64,000 nucleotides of DNA from positions 3,245,001 to 3,309,000 of the forward strand of contig NZ_CP085524.1 in the NCBI RefSeq assembly GCF_004353525.1, given 5' to 3'. This stretch comes from Zhaonella formicivorans (lineage in GTDB: Bacteria > Bacillota > DUOV01 > Zhaonellaceae). Below are positions 23,785 to 58,004 of the stretch, piece by piece. Under the pieces are notes generated by a model, which ran no database searches, was not told the DNA's origin, and worked only from the letters and a program-made list of their open reading frames with translations. Each line of letters opens with the position of its first letter. Position 1 is the first letter of the stretch. The position numbers and the translations under genes are program-made.

Positions 23785-23857
23785 ATGAATACTCCTACCA
23801 ACCGGTAGGAGCCATCAGCTTCATAAAGCAGTTTATGGCGAGCCCCATCGCCATTAC
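23785..23857 (-). ncRNA. fluoride riboswitch (crcB motif) controlling fluC-DUF190
   Basis: On the minus strand: GGCGATGGGGCTCGCC (P1 and J region), TAAACTGC, then GCTGATGGCTCCTAC, the conserved crcB-motif order including the pseudoknot halves. CTCCTACC then pairs with GGTAGGAG to form a hairpin followed by TATTCATATTTTT, the likely terminator that fluoride binding prevents. Confidence 0.92.
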
Positions 23858-24046
23858 TTTTTATCGATTTTACTACATAACATTATACCCAACTTTTAAT
23901 TAGCTTTTCAAGCACTTGGAATCAGGTGTTATCAAGAGGCCCTCATGCTTATCGTCAGCACTATCAGAAAAATGAAAATTGTAACCCATTGTGTCGTAGC
24001 TGCTCCTTTTGACGGGCTATAGAGCGCTCTGTGAAGAGTATTAATT

Positions 24047-45475: not shown

Positions 45476-45720
45476 TTATTTACCCCCAGACATTACTAAT
45501 TATTATACGCGTTTGCGGATTTCCCTGCTGTTTACTATAATTTATCTGAAAAAGAAAATGCTTGTGCCAAGCATGGTTGTGTTTAAACTGTTAAAATACA
45601 ATAAAATTTTGATACAACAATTCGTTTTACAGCGAATTCTTGTTATACTACAAGTGAAAAGAATTTGTAACCTTTGTTGAAATAAGCTGGTATTTTCTAC
45701 TTGAGAGAGGATTGTGTTTT

Positions 45721-46737
45721 ATGCCAGAAAACTGTACTATTCTTGCCTTGGAGACTTCCTGCGACGAGACTTCGGCTGCGGTAGTTATTGACGGAATCAA
45801 AGTAGCGTCTAACATCATTTCTTCCCAGATAGCGACTCATCAGAAGTTTGGCGGTGTAGTGCCGGAAATAGCATCCCGCAAGCATTTGGAGAATATCACA
45901 CCTGTAGTGCAGGAGGCGCTGGACAAGGCAGGCAAACTGCTACACGAGTTGGATGCCATAGCTGTTACCTATGGTCCAGGGTTGGTAGGGGCGCTCCTGG
46001 TGGGGGTTTCCACTGCCAAAGCTATGGCCTATGCTTTGGACAAGCCCCTAATCGGCGTACATCACCTGGCAGGTCATATTTATGCCAACTTTTTAACTAA
46101 GCCCAACTTGGAACTGCCGGTAGTGTGCCTGGTGGTTTCAGGGGGACACACTAGCTTGATCTACTGGAAGGACCATGGACAGCTGGAGCTTATGGGCTCC
46201 ACCAGGGACGATGCTGCAGGGGAAGCGTTTGATAAGATTGCCAGGGCTTTAAAGCTGGGTTATCCAGGGGGACCATTTATTGAAAGAGCAGCTAGAGCAG
46301 GAAATCCGGAGGCCATCAATTTTCCCAGAGCCTGGTTAGAAGAGGGCAGCTTGGATTTTAGTTTCAGCGGGCTCAAATCAAGCGTTTTGAATTACTTGCA
46401 TAGGGCGAACCAGCTGGGGGAAGAGGTGAATGCAGCCGATGTGGCTGCCAGCTTTCAGGAGGCGGTGGTGGAGGTGTTGGCAACCAAAACGGTAAATGCC
46501 GCGGAATTAAAGGGGGCCAAAACTATAACTTTGGCCGGAGGAGTGGCGGCAAACAGCAGGCTGCGGCAGCTGTTGCAAAATAAAGCAAAAGCCAGGGGAA
46601 TTGAAGTGATTTTCCCCGACCTTATTTACTGTACAGATAATGCAGCCATGATTGGCTGCGCCGCGTATTTTCAGTATTTGCAGGGCAAAACCTCGGATTT
46701 GGATTTAAATGCTGTGCCCAGCCTGGCCCTCTGCTAA
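45721..46737 (+). CDS. tsaD: tRNA N6-adenosine threonylcarbamoyltransferase
   Basis: About 338 residues. [15 protein letters not shown], the metal-binding HHLAGHIY pair, [13 protein letters not shown] and [15 protein letters not shown] are all present. It transfers threonylcarbamoyl to A37 of tRNA. ATG 45721 is preferred over TTG 45712 because AGAGAGG lies 10 nt upstream. It is normally next to tsaB/rimI but is here separated by the stalk and kinase genes. Confidence 0.96.
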
Positions 46738-46739
46738 GA

Positions 46740-46978
46740 GAGTCATCAGTCATCACAATCGGTAAAAGCCGCGTCCTTAGTCCTTGGCACCGGCTGACGC
46801 CGAGTCAATAGTCGCTCGTCATTAGTTTTTAGTCATATGTATGGCTTGGGCGGACTTATAAAGCCATGAGCACTAGTCATTAGTAAATTGGAAGCCAACG
46901 GCTAATTGCTGGGAGCTGATGGCTGACAACTGATATCTGACAGCTGATAGCTAACAACTAACGACTTGACCGTAGGTC
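46740..46978 (-). repeat. dispersed intergenic repeat, copy 3 (minus orientation)
   Basis: Begins directly after the tsaD stop. On the minus strand it reads through TACGGTCAAGTCGTTAGTTG, GCTTCCAATTTACTAATGAC, TTTATAAGTCCGCCCAAGCC and GCCAAGGACTAAGGACGCGG, the same order as copy 2. With copy 2 it frames a 4-kb segment (stalk, kinase, tsaD) by inverted repeats. It abuts the DnaA-box cluster. Confidence 0.85.
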
Positions 46979-46984
46979 ATTGCC

Positions 46985-47215
46985 AGTGGATAAGGTGGAC
47001 AAGTTATACACAAGGGAACTGCTGTTTTGTGGATGAAAAGCTGTGGATAATGTGCATAAACCTGTTAATAACTTGAGAAAACTGGCTTGGTTTGCTGTGG
47101 AAAATAAAAAGGCACACTTGTTCCCGTTGGCCCGGGCAAAACAGGGGTAAATGTGGATAAGTGGGCTTAACATAGAGGGCGCAAGGATCGGTGCTTGTGG
47201 ATTATTTGTGGATAA
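46985..47215. promoter_or_regulatory. DnaA-box cluster (eight boxes in 231 bp)
   Basis: Five perfect matches to TTATNCACA: 47004-47012 (+), and on the minus strand 47042-47050, 47051-47059, 47152-47160 and 47207-47215. Three more have one mismatch: 46985-46993, 47028-47036 and 47196-47204. Two boxes are directly abutted (47042-47059). An AT stretch (AAAATAAAAA, about 47101) lies between. No dnaA, dnaN or recF is adjacent, so this is more likely a DnaA-titration or regulatory locus than oriC. I recall that B. subtilis has a DnaA-binding region near gcp (tsaD), which would fit; that needs checking. Confidence 0.85.
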
Positions 47216-47238: not shown

Positions 47239-47673
47239 ATGTCAACTAAAGCTAGACTGGTTATTTTGGGGCTGGTGGCAGCCATAGCTGTTTTTGTGGT
47301 TTACGTTTCGTTTAGTTCCACTGCCCAGGAGTCTTTGCACCAGAGGTACTCCGATTATCAGGGCGCTTTGGCGGAAGCAAAGGCTGAAAAGGTTCCTGCT
47401 TTTGTAGAATTCTATTCTGAAACTTGAAGTGTTTGTAAAGAATTGGAGCCCGTGATTATGGCTCTGGAGAAAAAATATGGGGAACAAATCAGGTTTATTG
47501 TGGTTGATGTCAACACGGAGCAGGGTTACAAGCTGGCGGAGGATTTTAACATCCGTTTTCTGCCCACAATGTTATTTTTGGATCAAAGCGGTGACATGGT
47601 CAAACAACTCGAAGGCTGGATAGACGGTGCTGTTTTGGAGGACCGGCTGGTCTCACTTTTAGACCGGGAGTGA
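47239..47673 (+). CDS. membrane-anchored thioredoxin-like selenoprotein (U-x-x-C)
   Basis: 144 residues if the in-frame TGA at 47425-47427 is read as selenocysteine (residue 63). An N-terminal membrane anchor (LVILGLVAAIAVFVVYVSF) precedes a thioredoxin fold: AFVEFYSET-U-SVCKELEP, IRFIVVDVN, the cis-Pro region FNIRFLPTMLFLDQSG, and a C-terminal helix. The TGA sits at the first Cys of the CxxC site (U-S-V-C), and both halves are in one frame with continuous thioredoxin homology. A hairpin follows 15 nt after the TGA. GGGGGAGG precedes ATG 47239. It should act outside the membrane as a disulfide reductase or oxidase. The alternative is a Cys-to-stop nonsense mutation. Overlaps the next gene by 4 bp. 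Confidence 0.8.
47443..47467 (+). promoter_or_regulatory. candidate SECIS hairpin of the thioredoxin-like selenoprotein
   Basis: GAGCC (47446-47450) / GGCTC (47460-47464) perfect pairs, extended by three G-U-type pairs outward, closing a 9-nt loop that contains GTG. It begins 15 nt after the TGA, the expected distance for a bacterial SelB-binding element. Confidence 0.6.
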
Positions 47674-49028
47674 AAAGAGTGGAGGGGTGGAAAAAAGCAC
47701 CGGAGCATTTTATTCTGTTTGCTGCTAGACAACATAACATCTTGACCATTACCTCCAAATGCAACGTGCACTGCATTTTTTGCAGCCACCGCCAAAACCC
47801 TCCGGGCGTAACAACGTATTATGTTGAAGAGTTAAGCCTTGAGCAAGTCAAAGAATATGCCGAATACCTGGATGGAACCCGAAAAATAATTATCGGTGAG
47901 TCGGCCACTAAAATCAGTGAAGGCGAGCCTTTTACCCACCCGGAGATTATTCCTGTCTTACAATATTTGCGCCGGCGGTTTCCCAGGACGCCGCTGCAAT
48001 TAACCACCAACGGCAGTCTCTTGACTCCTGAAATTATAGCTGAGCTGGTGAAATTGTCTCCGGTGGAACTGTATTTATCCCTCAACAGCGTTTCGCGGCA
48101 AGGTAGGCTGAAACTGATGGCTGACCGTCGCGGGCCGGGACAGGGTTTACTGAAAATGCTGGCTGAAGCAGGACTTGCTTTCCATGGCAGTTTGGTGGCC
48201 ATGCCCTGGATAGTTGGCTGGGAGGACTTGCACGACACTGTTTTGGCCTTAGACAGATCCGGGGCAAAAACCATTCGCATTTTCTTGCCGGGGTATACAA
48301 GGTTAGCCCCTGCCGGACTGCGCTTTCCGCCCGGGTTATGGGAACAACTGTCCGAGTTTGTGGTTAAGCATAAGCAGCAAATAAGCACGCCGCTGACGTT
48401 GGAGCCTCCCCATTTGGCGGATTTAAACCCTGAGGTTGGCGGGGTAATAAAAGGATCACCCGCAGCAGAGGCGGGGCTTTGGCCAGGTGATGTCATCCTT
48501 GCCATTAACAACGAACCCCCTTTTTCCAGGGTTGATGCTTTTCATAAGCTTCTGGCCGCAGGAAAAGCTGAAATTCATGTGAGGCGGGGGAAGGAGCAGT
48601 TCGCTCTCACATTAATTAAAAACAATAATGAGCCCTCCGGTTTAGTTATGGAATATGATCTCAGCCGGGAAGAGGCCGAAACGATCATTCAGAACGTACG
48701 CAAGGCGGGAGCCGGGTCGCCTTTGCTTCTTGCTTCCCAGGCGGGTTACCGGGTTGTAAAGGAGAGTTTACAAAAAATTGCACCGGAAGCAGGAGTTGAA
48801 GTCCAGCAGGCAGCCAATGATTTTTTTGGCGGTTCCATAATTACCGCCGGGTTATTAACAGTTGAAGATTTTCAAAAGCACTGGCTGAAAATGGGGACTG
48901 AAGCCAAAAACAAATATGATTTGCTAGTACTGCCTGCAAAGGCTTTCGACCACCGGGGGCAGGACCTGACAGGCCGTTCTTATTGGGAATTGCAAGAACT
49001 TACCGGTATACCCGTGATTATTATCTAG
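47670..49028 (+). CDS. radical SAM protein with internal PDZ and C-terminal DUF512-like region
   Basis: 452 residues. Radical SAM site CNVHCIFC (CxxxCxxC) near residue 31 with later LQLTTNGSLLT; a PDZ domain near 250-330 (VIKGSPAAEAGLWPGDVILA); and a C-terminal block DFFGGSIITAGLLTVEDF and LLVLPAKAFDHRGQDL resembling DUF512. In DUF512 proteins I recall the PDZ domain is N-terminal, so this order is unusual. It overlaps the selenoprotein gene by 4 bp, implying a shared redox or modification task. Substrate and reaction are unknown. A GTG at 47670 or 47679 is the start. Confidence 0.7.
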   Translation: MKRVEGWKKAPEHFILFAARQHNILTITSKCNVHCIFCSHRQNPPGVTTYYVEELSLEQVKEYAEYLDGTRKIIIGESATKISEGEPFTHPEIIPVLQYLRRRFPRTPLQLTTNGSLLTPEIIAELVKLSPVELYLSLNSVSRQGRLKLMADRRGPGQGLLKMLAEAGLAFHGSLVAMPWIVGWEDLHDTVLALDRSGAKTIRIFLPGYTRLAPAGLRFPPGLWEQLSEFVVKHKQQISTPLTLEPPHLADLNPEVGGVIKGSPAAEAGLWPGDVILAINNEPPFSRVDAFHKLLAAGKAEIHVRRGKEQFALTLIKNNNEPSGLVMEYDLSREEAETIIQNVRKAGAGSPLLLASQAGYRVVKESLQKIAPEAGVEVQQAANDFFGGSIITAGLLTVEDFQKHWLKMGTEAKNKYDLLVLPAKAFDHRGQDLTGRSYWELQELTGIPVIII

Positions 49029-50316: not shown

Positions 50317-52028
50317 AATATTCATATAAAAAATCTGTTGAGCTTTAAAACCTTAGTGCAATAAGAATTAATAAGCCTTTAGCATATCACCCATTAAGTG
50401 AAATGAAAGCATGGAAAAAGAGCCCAAACTTTGGTATTGTAATGGTGTTGGCAAACCAACCTTTACCAAAGGAGGACTCTTCTTATGAAAAGTGTACAGG
50501 AATATAGCATGAACTTCAACTCCCGAATAAAAGTTAATTTCAATGGTGGCGACCTAACTTCAGATGCAGGGTTGTTATTGTATAAGGAATTTGATTATAA
50601 ACTCGGCCTTTCAGAAACTGTTGAAAAAATGCTGGTAGTTGATGACCCTGTTATGCACCGAGATCATCCTAATAGTGATGTGGTTATCCAAAAGCTTTAT
50701 CAGCATCTTGCTGGTTATCACGCTGATGATCATGCGGATGACTTAAGCGAAGAACCCCTACTCACCGCTATACTGGGAAAAAGCGCTTGGCCTCGCAGCC
50801 AACAATCTCCCGGTTCAATGAAAAAGCGAATATTGCAACTGCAAAATCATTGGAACATATTAATGAAATCTTACAAAAGCGAGTATATATGCTTAAACCC
50901 CAAGACCAGTTTGTTATGGATCTTGATTCTTCCGGCTTTACTGCTTACGGTAATCAATATGGAGCAAACTTCAATTCTCATTATCAAGAGTGGGGGTTTC
51001 ACCCTCTATTTTGTTTTGATGGACTAACAGGTGATTGCCTTAAAGCCGAGCTTCGTGCTGGCAACGTATATACTTCTCGTCAGGTGGTGCGATTTGTCGG
51101 TCCACTCCTTAAAAGGTATGAGGCTTGGGTTAGCAATCCTTTAATTGTTTTGCGCGCAGATAGTGGTTTTGCCGTTCCAGAACTCTTTAAACTAGTAGAA
51201 ACCAAGGGTCATAAATATGTAATTCGCTTAAAAGCCAATGCTCGTCTTCAATCTGTTGCACAGTCCATGGCGGACCAAGTATTAAACCCTGAAAGACTGC
51301 ATGAAAGGCAAGTCCACTACCGGGAATTTCTGTATCAAGCTACTAGTTGGGATCGTGCCCCGCCGCGTTGTTGTCAAAATGGAACGGCCTGCTGGACAAT
51401 TGTTCTTTGAATTCACGTTTATCGTGACAAACATGGAACTACAACCGCGTAATATCGTTCGTTTTTACTGTCAACGTGGACATATGGAAAACTTTATTAA
51501 GGAAGCCAAAAATGGATTCGCTTGTCACAAACTTAGCAGCACTAACTTTGAATCCAATGCAGTAAAACTGCAGTTATCCATGTTGGCATACAACTTTAAC
51601 AACTGGTTTCGTAGGTTGTGCTTGCCTGAACCAATGAAACCAAACCGAATGGAGACACTGCGGTTGAAATTAATCAAAATTGCAGGGAAACTGGTACGTT
51701 CCGCTCGCTACTGGACCTGGAAGTTATGCAGCTCTTATATATACCAAAATTCATTTATACAAACCTTGCAAAATATAAGCAGTTTGCCTTGTTTAGTAAA
51801 TGAATAAATTACTAAAAAAACTAGTTTTTAAGCCATAATTAAGGAACAAGGGGCAGCTATAGCTTCAAATCATCCAGTTTTATGCATCTCTTACATCGTA
51901 TACCATATCAATGCCTTGTGCGTGTTTTTTACAACAGGTTACAGGGCCAACATGAGAAAGCAAGATATATCTTAACACCATTTTGTTACAAAATTTCCAT
52001 GGCCTATTATGGCTATGAATATTTCAGA
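50312..52028 (+). mobile_element. IS1380-family insertion sequence, about 1.7 kb
   Basis: Terminal inverted repeats CTGAAATATTCAT (left 50313-50325; right, reversed, 52015-52027). The 6-bp string ATGGGT flanks both sides (50306-50311 and 52029-52034) as the target duplication. Encodes one transposase, here frameshifted. Size, end sequence and transposase motifs fit IS1380. The element splits the nuoE-like gene. Confidence 0.88.
50485..51807 (+). pseudogene. IS1380-type transposase, two frameshifts
   Basis: About 440 residues when repaired. DDE motifs survive: LDSSGFTAYG (D), LRADSGFAVPEL (D) and HMENFIKEAKNGF (E). One base is missing near 50785-50788 (GCTTGG where GCTTTGG would keep frame) and one extra C lies in the CCCC run near 51357-51360. 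Both are single-base changes in homopolymers, so either real decay or sequencing error. As written, no full-length transposase is made. Confidence 0.88.
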
Positions 52029-55316: not shown

Positions 55317-58004
55317 GTGGTGCAAAACGTTACCTTAACCTTAAACGGGCAACAAGTGACAGTTCCGGCAGGGACAACAGTTCTTGAGGCAGCCAGGATG
55401 CACGGAATTAACATCCCTACTCTCTGTCACGACGAAGAGCTATCCAACCCTGGCGCCTGCCGCCTGTGCGTGGTAGAGATCAAGAACATGAGGAACTTGC
55501 CGGCTTCCTGCGTGACTCAAGTCAGCGAAGGAATGGAGGTCTATACCCATTCCCCTGCGGTAATCGAGGCCCGCAAAACCATCCTGGAGCTGCTTTTAGC
55601 CAATCACCCCAATGACTGTTTGACCTGCGCCAAGTCGGGGGAATGCAGCTTGCAGGAATATGCCTACGAATATGGAGTGCGTTTTTCCGATATGGGCGAA
55701 AAGCATAGCTACCCCATTGATGCTGCCAACCCATTTATTCAAAGAGACTATAATAAATGCATTCTCTGCGGCAAGTGTGTAAGGGCCTGTGCCGAAGTGC
55801 AGGGCAGGAATATCATTGACTTTGCTAACCGCGGATTTAACACCAAGGTTGCCACTGCTATGGATTTACCGCTGGAAGAGTCAAACTGTGTCTTCTGCGG
55901 CAGCTGCGTAGCCGTTTGCCCGGTGGGCGCTTTGACAGAAAAACAGATGAAGGGCAAAGGTCGCAAATGGGAATTAACTAAAGTTCGCACTACCTGTCCT
56001 TACTGTGGAACCGGCTGTACCTTTGACCTGAATGTCAAAGACGGCAGGGTGGTGGGCGTTACCTCTACTCCCGAAGCTGAAGTGAATGGCCGGGCCCTGT
56101 GCGTAAAAGGGCGTTTCGGCTACAACTTCATCCACCATCCGGACCGGCTTACCCAGCCGCTCATTAAAAAGGACGGAGAGCTGGTGCCCGCCACCTGGGA
56201 GGAAGCATTAGACCTGGTGGCTGAAAAATTCTCCAGTATAAAAAAGGAATACGGTCCTGACGCATTGGCTGTCTTGAGTTCAGCCAGATGCACCAACGAA
56301 GAGAATTATTTGGCCAATAAACTGACCCGTGCAGTCTTCGGTACTAACAATATCGATCACTGCGCCCGTCTCTGACACTCTGCCACCGTCGCCGGTCTGG
56401 CGATAGCGTTCGGTAGTGGTGCCATGACTAACTCTATTGCGGAAATAGCAGAAACTGACTTTATTTTTGCTATCGGTACCAATACTACTGAGACTCATCC
56501 CATAATCAGCTTGAAAGTGCGTAAAGCCTTAAACAAGGGGGCAACGTTAGTGGTGGCCGATCCGCGTAAAACTGAAATGGCGGAAATGGCCGACATCTTT
56601 ATTCAGCATCAGGCTGGCTCCGACCTGGCCCTTTTAAATGCCATGGCCAACGTGATTATCAGCGAAGATTTGTATGACAAAGAATTTGTAGCCGGTCGCA
56701 CGGAAGGATTTGAGGATGTCAAACAAGCGGTAGCGAAATATTCTCCCGAATATGCGGAAAGTTTGACGGGAGTCCCTGCGGCAAAAATCAGGGAAGCTGC
56801 CCGCAGGTATGCTAAGGCGGAAAATGCCATGATCCTTTATACCATGGGTATTACCCAGCATATTTGCGGCACTGATAACGTTTTGGCTATTGCCAACCTG
56901 GCCCTTTTAACAGGCCATATTGGCAAACCTTATAACGGTGTTTGCCCGTTACGGGGCCAAAACAACGTGCAAGGCGCTTGTGACATGGGTGCTTTGCCCA
57001 ACTACTACCCCGGCTATCAAAAGGTCGAGGATCCCGCCATCAAAGCCAAATTTGAAGCGGCCTGGGGTGTTCAGCTTTCAGGCAAGGAAGGTTTGACTGT
57101 TGGCGAGATGATGGACGGAGCTCACGAAGGAAAAGTTAGGGGCATGTATATTATCGGGGAAAACCCTGCCTTAAGTGACCCTGATGCCAACCATGTAATC
57201 AGTGCCTTGAAGCACCTGGAATTCCTGGTGGTGCAGGATATCTTTTTAACAGAGACAGCTCGTTTGGCAGATGTAGTTTTACCCGCAGCCAGCTTTGCCG
57301 AAAAGAGCGGTACTTTCTCCAATACGGAGCGCAGGGTGCAGTTGGTGCGCCAGGCTATTGAGCCTATAGGCCAGGCTAAACCTGACTGGAAAATTATCTC
57401 GGAAATTGCCAACCGCTTGGGAGGTAATTTCCTGTATAGCAGCCCGGCCGAAATTATGGAGGAAATAGCCCGCGTTACACCAAGCTATGGGGGCATTTCC
57501 CATGCCCGTTTGGAACAAGGTAGTTTACAGTGGCCTTGTCCCACTGCTGACCATCCGGGGACGCCTATACTTCATCAAGGAAAATTTGCCCGCGGCTTGG
57601 GTAAGTTTAGCGCTGTCGGCCATGTTCCACCCAACGAGCAGCCCAATGCTGAGTATCCCTTTATCTTAAGCACCGGCAGAAGATTGCATCATTACCATAC
57701 AGGTACCATGACCAGAAGAACAGGCATTGAAATTTTAGTTCCCGAGGAACTGTTGGAACTGAACCCGCAAGATGCTTGTAAATTGGGCATAACTGACGGT
57801 GAAAAGATCAAGGTAATTTCCCGTCGTGGCGAGGTAGAAGTTAAAGTGAAAATTACTGATATAGTTCCGGAAGGACTGGTTTTTGCCTCCTTCCACTTCT
57901 GGGAAGCAGCAATCAATAAGTTGACTAACTCCGCCCGCGACCCAAAAGCTAAGATTCCTGAATATAAGGTTTGTGCGGTGAAATTGGAAAAATTAGGGGC
58001 ATAA
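55317..58004 (+). CDS. fdhA: selenocysteine formate dehydrogenase, catalytic subunit
   Basis: 895 residues when the TGA at 56373-56375 is read as selenocysteine (residue 353). Order: [2Fe-2S] (CHDEELSNPGACRLC), [4Fe-4S] (HPNDCLTCAKSGECSLQ), 2 x [4Fe-4S] (CILCGKCVRAC, CVFCGSCVAVC), molybdopterin Fe4S4 (CPYCGTGCTF), the HCARL-U-HSATVAG active site, then molybdopterin domains to the C-terminal dinucleotide-binding fold. Both halves share a frame, and U plus the following His match the FdhF/FdhA active site. It oxidises formate or reduces CO2, coupled to NAD(H) via the NuoF-like subunit. GTG 55317 follows GAGGAGGG. Confidence 0.96.
56388..56404 (+). promoter_or_regulatory. SECIS element of fdhA
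   Basis: Stem GTCGCC (56388-56393) / GGCGAT (56399-56404) closing the loop GGTCT, like the AGGTCT apical loop of E. coli fdhF. It begins 12 nt after the TGA, so SelB can recode it. Confidence 0.85.

Follow-up and report, generated by a model that had tools for sequence, protein, structure and literature searches.

Thioredoxins with selenocysteine (Sec) in the first position of a UxxC active site, within a domain of the PF00085 family, are a recognised selenoprotein family, listed as verified (PMC13188914), and have been found in Geobacter sulfurreducens (GSU3446, PMC1914089) and reported for Carboxydothermus hydrogenoformans (PMC1794560). Surface thioredoxins that are fed by CcdA are known from Streptococcus pneumoniae (Etrx1 and Etrx2, with CcdA1 and CcdA2) and from Bacillus subtilis (ResA and StoA) (PMC3914529). 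A group of selenothioredoxins that is both membrane-anchored and linked to CcdA was not found described in our literature search. Here we report a gene of Zhaonella formicivorans, situated in a 64,000-nucleotide stretch of contig NZ_CP085524.1 (positions 3,245,001 to 3,309,000; hereafter the window, whose numbering is used for coordinates unless noted), whose product we believe, with a probability of roughly 85%, to be a membrane-anchored extracytoplasmic selenothioredoxin with the active site Sec63-x-x-Cys66, decoded via SelB and a hairpin and fed by CcdA.

The gene lies at 47239..47673 on the forward strand, with an AGGAGG-like stretch directly 5' of its ATG. From this ATG a single frame runs to the stop codon TGA at 47671-47673, and the only internal TGA (47425..47427), read as Sec, gives a protein of 144 residues in which it occupies position 63, at the start of the active site U-S-V-C. 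The resolving Cys of the U-x-x-C motif is residue 66 (47434..47436), and it is invariant in our alignment of the family, as are F58, P71, P109, G126 and position 63 itself (U or C). Pro109 (47563..47565) falls at the place of the thioredoxin cis-proline, and its cis state would be expected from the fold family. The Pfam thioredoxin model PF00085 matches residues 45-134, across the TGA, with an E-value of 2.9e-15 and 56.6 bits relative to a curated cut-off of 23.5, and the same match, with one TGA inside, was recovered in a scan of the whole genome. Reading of the frame thus upheld the original prediction as to the position of the TGA at the first CxxC cysteine and the continuation of thioredoxin homology on both of its sides, and on sequence grounds the identification of 47239-47673 as a selenoprotein gene is confirmed. 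Standard annotation truncates genes of this kind at the TGA, and a membrane redox pathway present in many anaerobes is thus readily missed.

The genome, a single contig of 3.31 Mb, encodes the machinery required to insert Sec, with selA, selB and selC in a row: SelA is directly upstream of SelB, which scores 400 bits, and tRNA-Sec (selC, 73.6 bits) adjoins selB. SelD is also present and has an in-frame TGA (genome coordinates 2511176-2512102, minus strand), so it is probably a selenoprotein itself. The use of Sec by this organism had been proposed from fdhA, and this second selenoprotein gene of the window (55317..58004, forward strand) does have an in-frame TGA, in the sequence CARLUHSA. Elsewhere in the genome, three near-identical copies of a thioredoxin gene lie within genome positions 1866562-1892734, each of which adjoins a longer frame (414-427 residues) with a further thioredoxin domain.

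Homologues were sought in 120 related genomes and then in 399 genomes drawn from the same phylum, each gene being read in its own frame. A TGA at exactly this codon was present in 35 genes from 34 genomes (Sec genes) and TGT or TGC in 15 genes (Cys genes), such that the first position of the active site is Sec or Cys in all 50 homologues and never another residue, including Trp. Chance is excluded as the source of the TGA, because 34 genes besides that of the window have it at the same codon. SelB scored above its curated cut-off in 34/34 of the Sec genomes and was absent from three genomes that have only Cys genes (G304, G387 and G359). A scan of genome contigs returned just three distant Cys relatives. 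The combination of a fused membrane anchor and a selenothioredoxin on the secreted side had been considered unusual, but the Sec form occurs in at least 34 of the 399 sampled genomes of the phylum.

The window protein falls in a well supported clade of five Sec proteins (99/97) with those of the genomes G080, G116, G004 and G039. On the tree as a whole the Sec or Cys state requires approximately five changes, in one direction or the other, of which at least four are on well supported branches. Within the bacterial family f12, a second, paralogous copy is, as judged from the sequences, a case of recent Sec/Cys switching among close relatives: it has Sec in two genera (G211 and G161) but Cys in two others (G131 and G186), and the hairpin is found in the Sec copies only. 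Such matched Sec/Cys pairs, some of them within one bacterial family, provide a direct test of what selenium contributes to a CcdA-fed thioredoxin, and also of how a SECIS element arises inside coding sequence.

A SECIS-like hairpin, GGAGCC-CGUGAUUAU-GGCUCU, was found at 47445..47465 on the forward strand, starting 17 nt after the TGA, with a core stem of 47445-47450 paired to 47460-47465 and a loop of 9 nt. The hairpin that had been noted downstream of the TGA is therefore present, although by itself it is modest (-8.0 kcal/mol, z -1.0) and not significant relative to shuffled sequences, and for this reason the case for a SECIS element rests on the family, where it is clear. A simple stem score, computed over the 48 bases from the TGA or its Cys counterpart, had disjoint ranges of 13 to 21.5 in the 35 Sec genes and 0 to 12 in the 15 Cys genes; a strong hairpin just 3' of the codon is thus a feature of 35/35 Sec genes and 0/15 Cys genes. 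The summed score of the Sec genes was 565.5, versus 361.7 (sd 16.5) in synonymous-codon shuffles, the largest of 2000 of which reached 423, whereas that of the Cys genes (129.5) did not differ from its shuffles (141); these totals treat related sequences as independent, which makes them look more significant than they are, but Sec and Cys genes are completely separated.

The sequence of the stem varies by lineage (GGAGCC/GGCUCU, AUCCCGC/GCGGGAU, GCACC/GGUGC and UGGAAC/GUUCCA), while a G in the apical loop is kept across the hairpins of the Sec genes. When 34 distinct sequences were aligned, the six pairs of the core stem were formed in 88.7% of cases, compared to 27-52% when the two sides were slid relative to one another, and eight alignment cells had changed on both sides of the stem with pairing kept; a version with nine pairs agrees. 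Stem pairing is, as far as such comparisons can reveal, preserved through sequence change beyond what the coding of protein would impose.

The protein is predicted to be oriented with its N-terminus in the cytoplasm and its thioredoxin domain outside. An N-terminal membrane helix (residues 8-26, 47260..47316 on the forward strand) has a hydropathy of 2.85 over 19 residues and is preceded by K and R. A hydrophobic helix is found before the domain in 49 of the 50 homologues, usually with Lys or Arg in front and 30-56 residues from the active site; the one homologue without a helix (L118) was probably truncated, the examined stretch being of limited length. An AlphaFold2 model, in which Cys took the place of Sec, had a mean pLDDT of 90.5 with a helix at residues 3-26 and a confident thioredoxin fold, and its best fold matches in the PDB were thioredoxins, DsbD-gamma and ResA being among the matches. 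These predictions are in keeping with the membrane-anchored, thioredoxin-like protein originally proposed.

The likely electron partner, which the original prediction had missed, would be CcdA, as judged from gene order. A ccdA gene is located within approximately 60 bases downstream of, or fused to, 40 of the 50 homologous genes (27/35 Sec genes and 13/15 Cys genes), and in five Sec members selenothioredoxin and CcdA form a single chain. The genes with no adjacent ccdA are the five of the window's clade, three further Sec genes (G006, G052 and G125) and the Cys genes of G304 and G387. In all five genomes of the clade, including that of the window, ccdA is located elsewhere, so for the window protein the partnership is deduced from its relatives. 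In a tree of CcdA proteins the lone copies of the four clade relatives form a clade next to the CcdAs that are partners of Sec proteins; the lone copy of the Zhaonella genome is in the same main CcdA group, its placement being resolved no further. Under the mechanism we propose, SelB and tRNA-Sec would decode the TGA at 47425, aided by the hairpin at 47445-47465, and electrons would flow from cytoplasmic thioredoxin through the membrane carrier CcdA to the selenothioredoxin, as the context of the family suggests. The Sec63 selenolate would, from its expected chemistry, attack disulfides in extracytoplasmic clients, and Cys66 would resolve the mixed selenenylsulfide.

As to which proteins are the clients, the System I cytochrome c maturation apparatus is possibly the best candidate in Z. 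formicivorans. Its genome has a System I cluster consisting of CcmB, CcmC, CcmE, CcmF and CcmH with an adjacent ABC ATPase, and ResB was not found in the genome. The selenothioredoxin might then be the missing CcmG, reducing apocytochrome c or CcmH with electrons from CcdA, which we hold only tentatively and consider rather doubtful. No thioredoxin-like gene or CcmG was found among the proteins examined in the ccm cluster, approximately 8-12 kb separate the lone ccdA from ccmF in G116, G039, G004 and G080 (in G039 a thioredoxin-reductase-like gene intervenes), and members of the family weakly match the DsbE and ResA models. The selenothioredoxin gene itself is far from the ccm cluster. Cytochrome c maturation as a role for the whole family was rejected, and cannot be its sole role, since seven genomes with Sec members (G026, G350, G362, G185, G216, G265 and G161), some of them incomplete assemblies, had no match to PF01578 or PF05140. 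It is feasible, if unlikely as a whole, that we are observing a selenium-run extracytoplasmic reducing pathway of anaerobes that extends across the phylum, in which CcdA passes electrons to a selenothioredoxin, Sec and Cys have been swapped several times with a new SECIS element each time, and the protein stands in for CcmG in this organism.

A different partner would be the product of the next gene downstream (47670..49028, forward strand), a protein in which a radical SAM domain is followed by PDZ and a partial DUF512, and which is found in 40 of the 120 relatives, often beside tsaD. In the window's clade the selenothioredoxin gene lies between this gene and tsaD (gcp; 45712..46737, forward strand, assigned from sequence and from synteny in relatives). 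That the two proteins work together is improbable: the start codon of the radical SAM gene overlaps the selenothioredoxin stop by a few bases and the same order is kept in the examined clade members that have the gene, but tsaD and the radical SAM gene also occur in this order with no thioredoxin in many genomes, including the sister genus (G001) and other families, most family members have ccdA at the downstream position instead, and the radical SAM protein is expected to be cytoplasmic. Because the pair exists without the thioredoxin, the latter either entered between the two genes or has disappeared in other lineages. We rejected the radical SAM gene as the main partner and judge it a syntenic neighbor by location.

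The region between tsaD and the selenothioredoxin gene contains five matches to the DnaA box (TTATNCACA) at 47004-47215. Boxes are also found just 3' of tsaD in relatives, including where the thioredoxin is absent, with 30 in 15.3 kb located 5' of the radical SAM gene compared to 10 in 77.6 kb elsewhere. As a strong DnaA site is known downstream of gcp (tsaD) in B. subtilis (PMC4447404), the boxes look like an old, conserved DnaA-binding locus, to go by their sequence and position. Degenerate short repeats resembling agctgatggctgacaactgat are situated directly 3' of tsaD (46740-46975). Other features of the window are a fluoride riboswitch (23799-23861, minus strand, 57.7 bits) and fragmented, overlapping transposase-like frames at 50485-51807, which are probably a broken insertion element.

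Returning to the selenothioredoxin and its decoding, two explanations would deny that Sec is inserted. It is highly improbable that translation mostly stops at the TGA, leaving a membrane peptide of 62 residues, or that the codon specifies a residue other than Sec, for instance Trp. Sec codons commonly cause some termination, and TGA does serve as an ordinary stop in the Zhaonella genome, the last codon of this same gene being one example, but the thioredoxin fold continues past the codon with the invariant residues C66, P71, P109 and G126. A reading as Trp was rejected on account of these residues, the replacement of Sec by Cys and never by Trp in homologues, and the presence of the Sec machinery; moreover, if every TGA were Trp, translation of this gene would not stop at its end but run on into the downstream gene that overlaps it. 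A CxxC thioredoxin gene in which the TGA arose by an error of sequencing or by a recent nonsense mutation, as a single in-frame stop and the existence of Cys homologues might suggest, is a weaker explanation still and can be dismissed, given the same codon in separate genomes, the restriction of the hairpin to genes with the TGA and the Sec machinery. An error, a pseudogene or a product that ends at the TGA is, in sum, very unlikely.

The selenothioredoxin of Z. formicivorans can be set against several known systems. TsoB, a rhodanese/DsbD fusion-like selenoprotein (NF045694), and the thiol:disulfide interchange selenoprotein (PF13098) are, like it, selenoproteins with thioredoxin-like domains, and TsoB is tied to DsbD; the window protein has no rhodanese domain and scores 41.7 bits relative to the TsoB cut-off of 805. 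It is below every NCBIfam cut-off compared (thioredoxin TIGR01068, ResA, DsbE, StoA and TsoB), and these scores place its sequence nearer to classical thioredoxin than to ResA; for other family members the NCBIfam comparison is of E-values only. DsbD resembles the five Sec fusions in joining a CcdA-like membrane part to an outward thioredoxin domain, and DsbD-gamma matches in fold, but in the fusions the order of domains is reversed (thioredoxin first), the alpha domain was not seen and the active site contains Sec. With the Etrx proteins and with ResA and StoA the window protein shares a thioredoxin fold and, by prediction, a position on the surface side and feeding by CcdA, beside or fused to which most of its family is encoded; these use Cys, and Etrx has a lipid anchor, whereas the window protein has Sec and a predicted membrane helix. 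In Carboxydothermus hydrogenoformans, CHY_0565 is annotated as a selenothioredoxin joined to a protein of cytochrome c biogenesis. The closest likeness is to the UxxC selenothioredoxins, which have in common with the window protein the thioredoxin fold, a Sec that begins the active-site motif and SECIS-dependent reading of TGA, and from which it differs by its predicted membrane anchor and the link of its family to CcdA, neither of which is described for these proteins in PMC1914089, PMC13188914 or PMC1794560. The window protein is thus a member of the known Sec-UxxC thioredoxin family, within which the membrane-anchored, CcdA-coupled design deserves a family model of its own.
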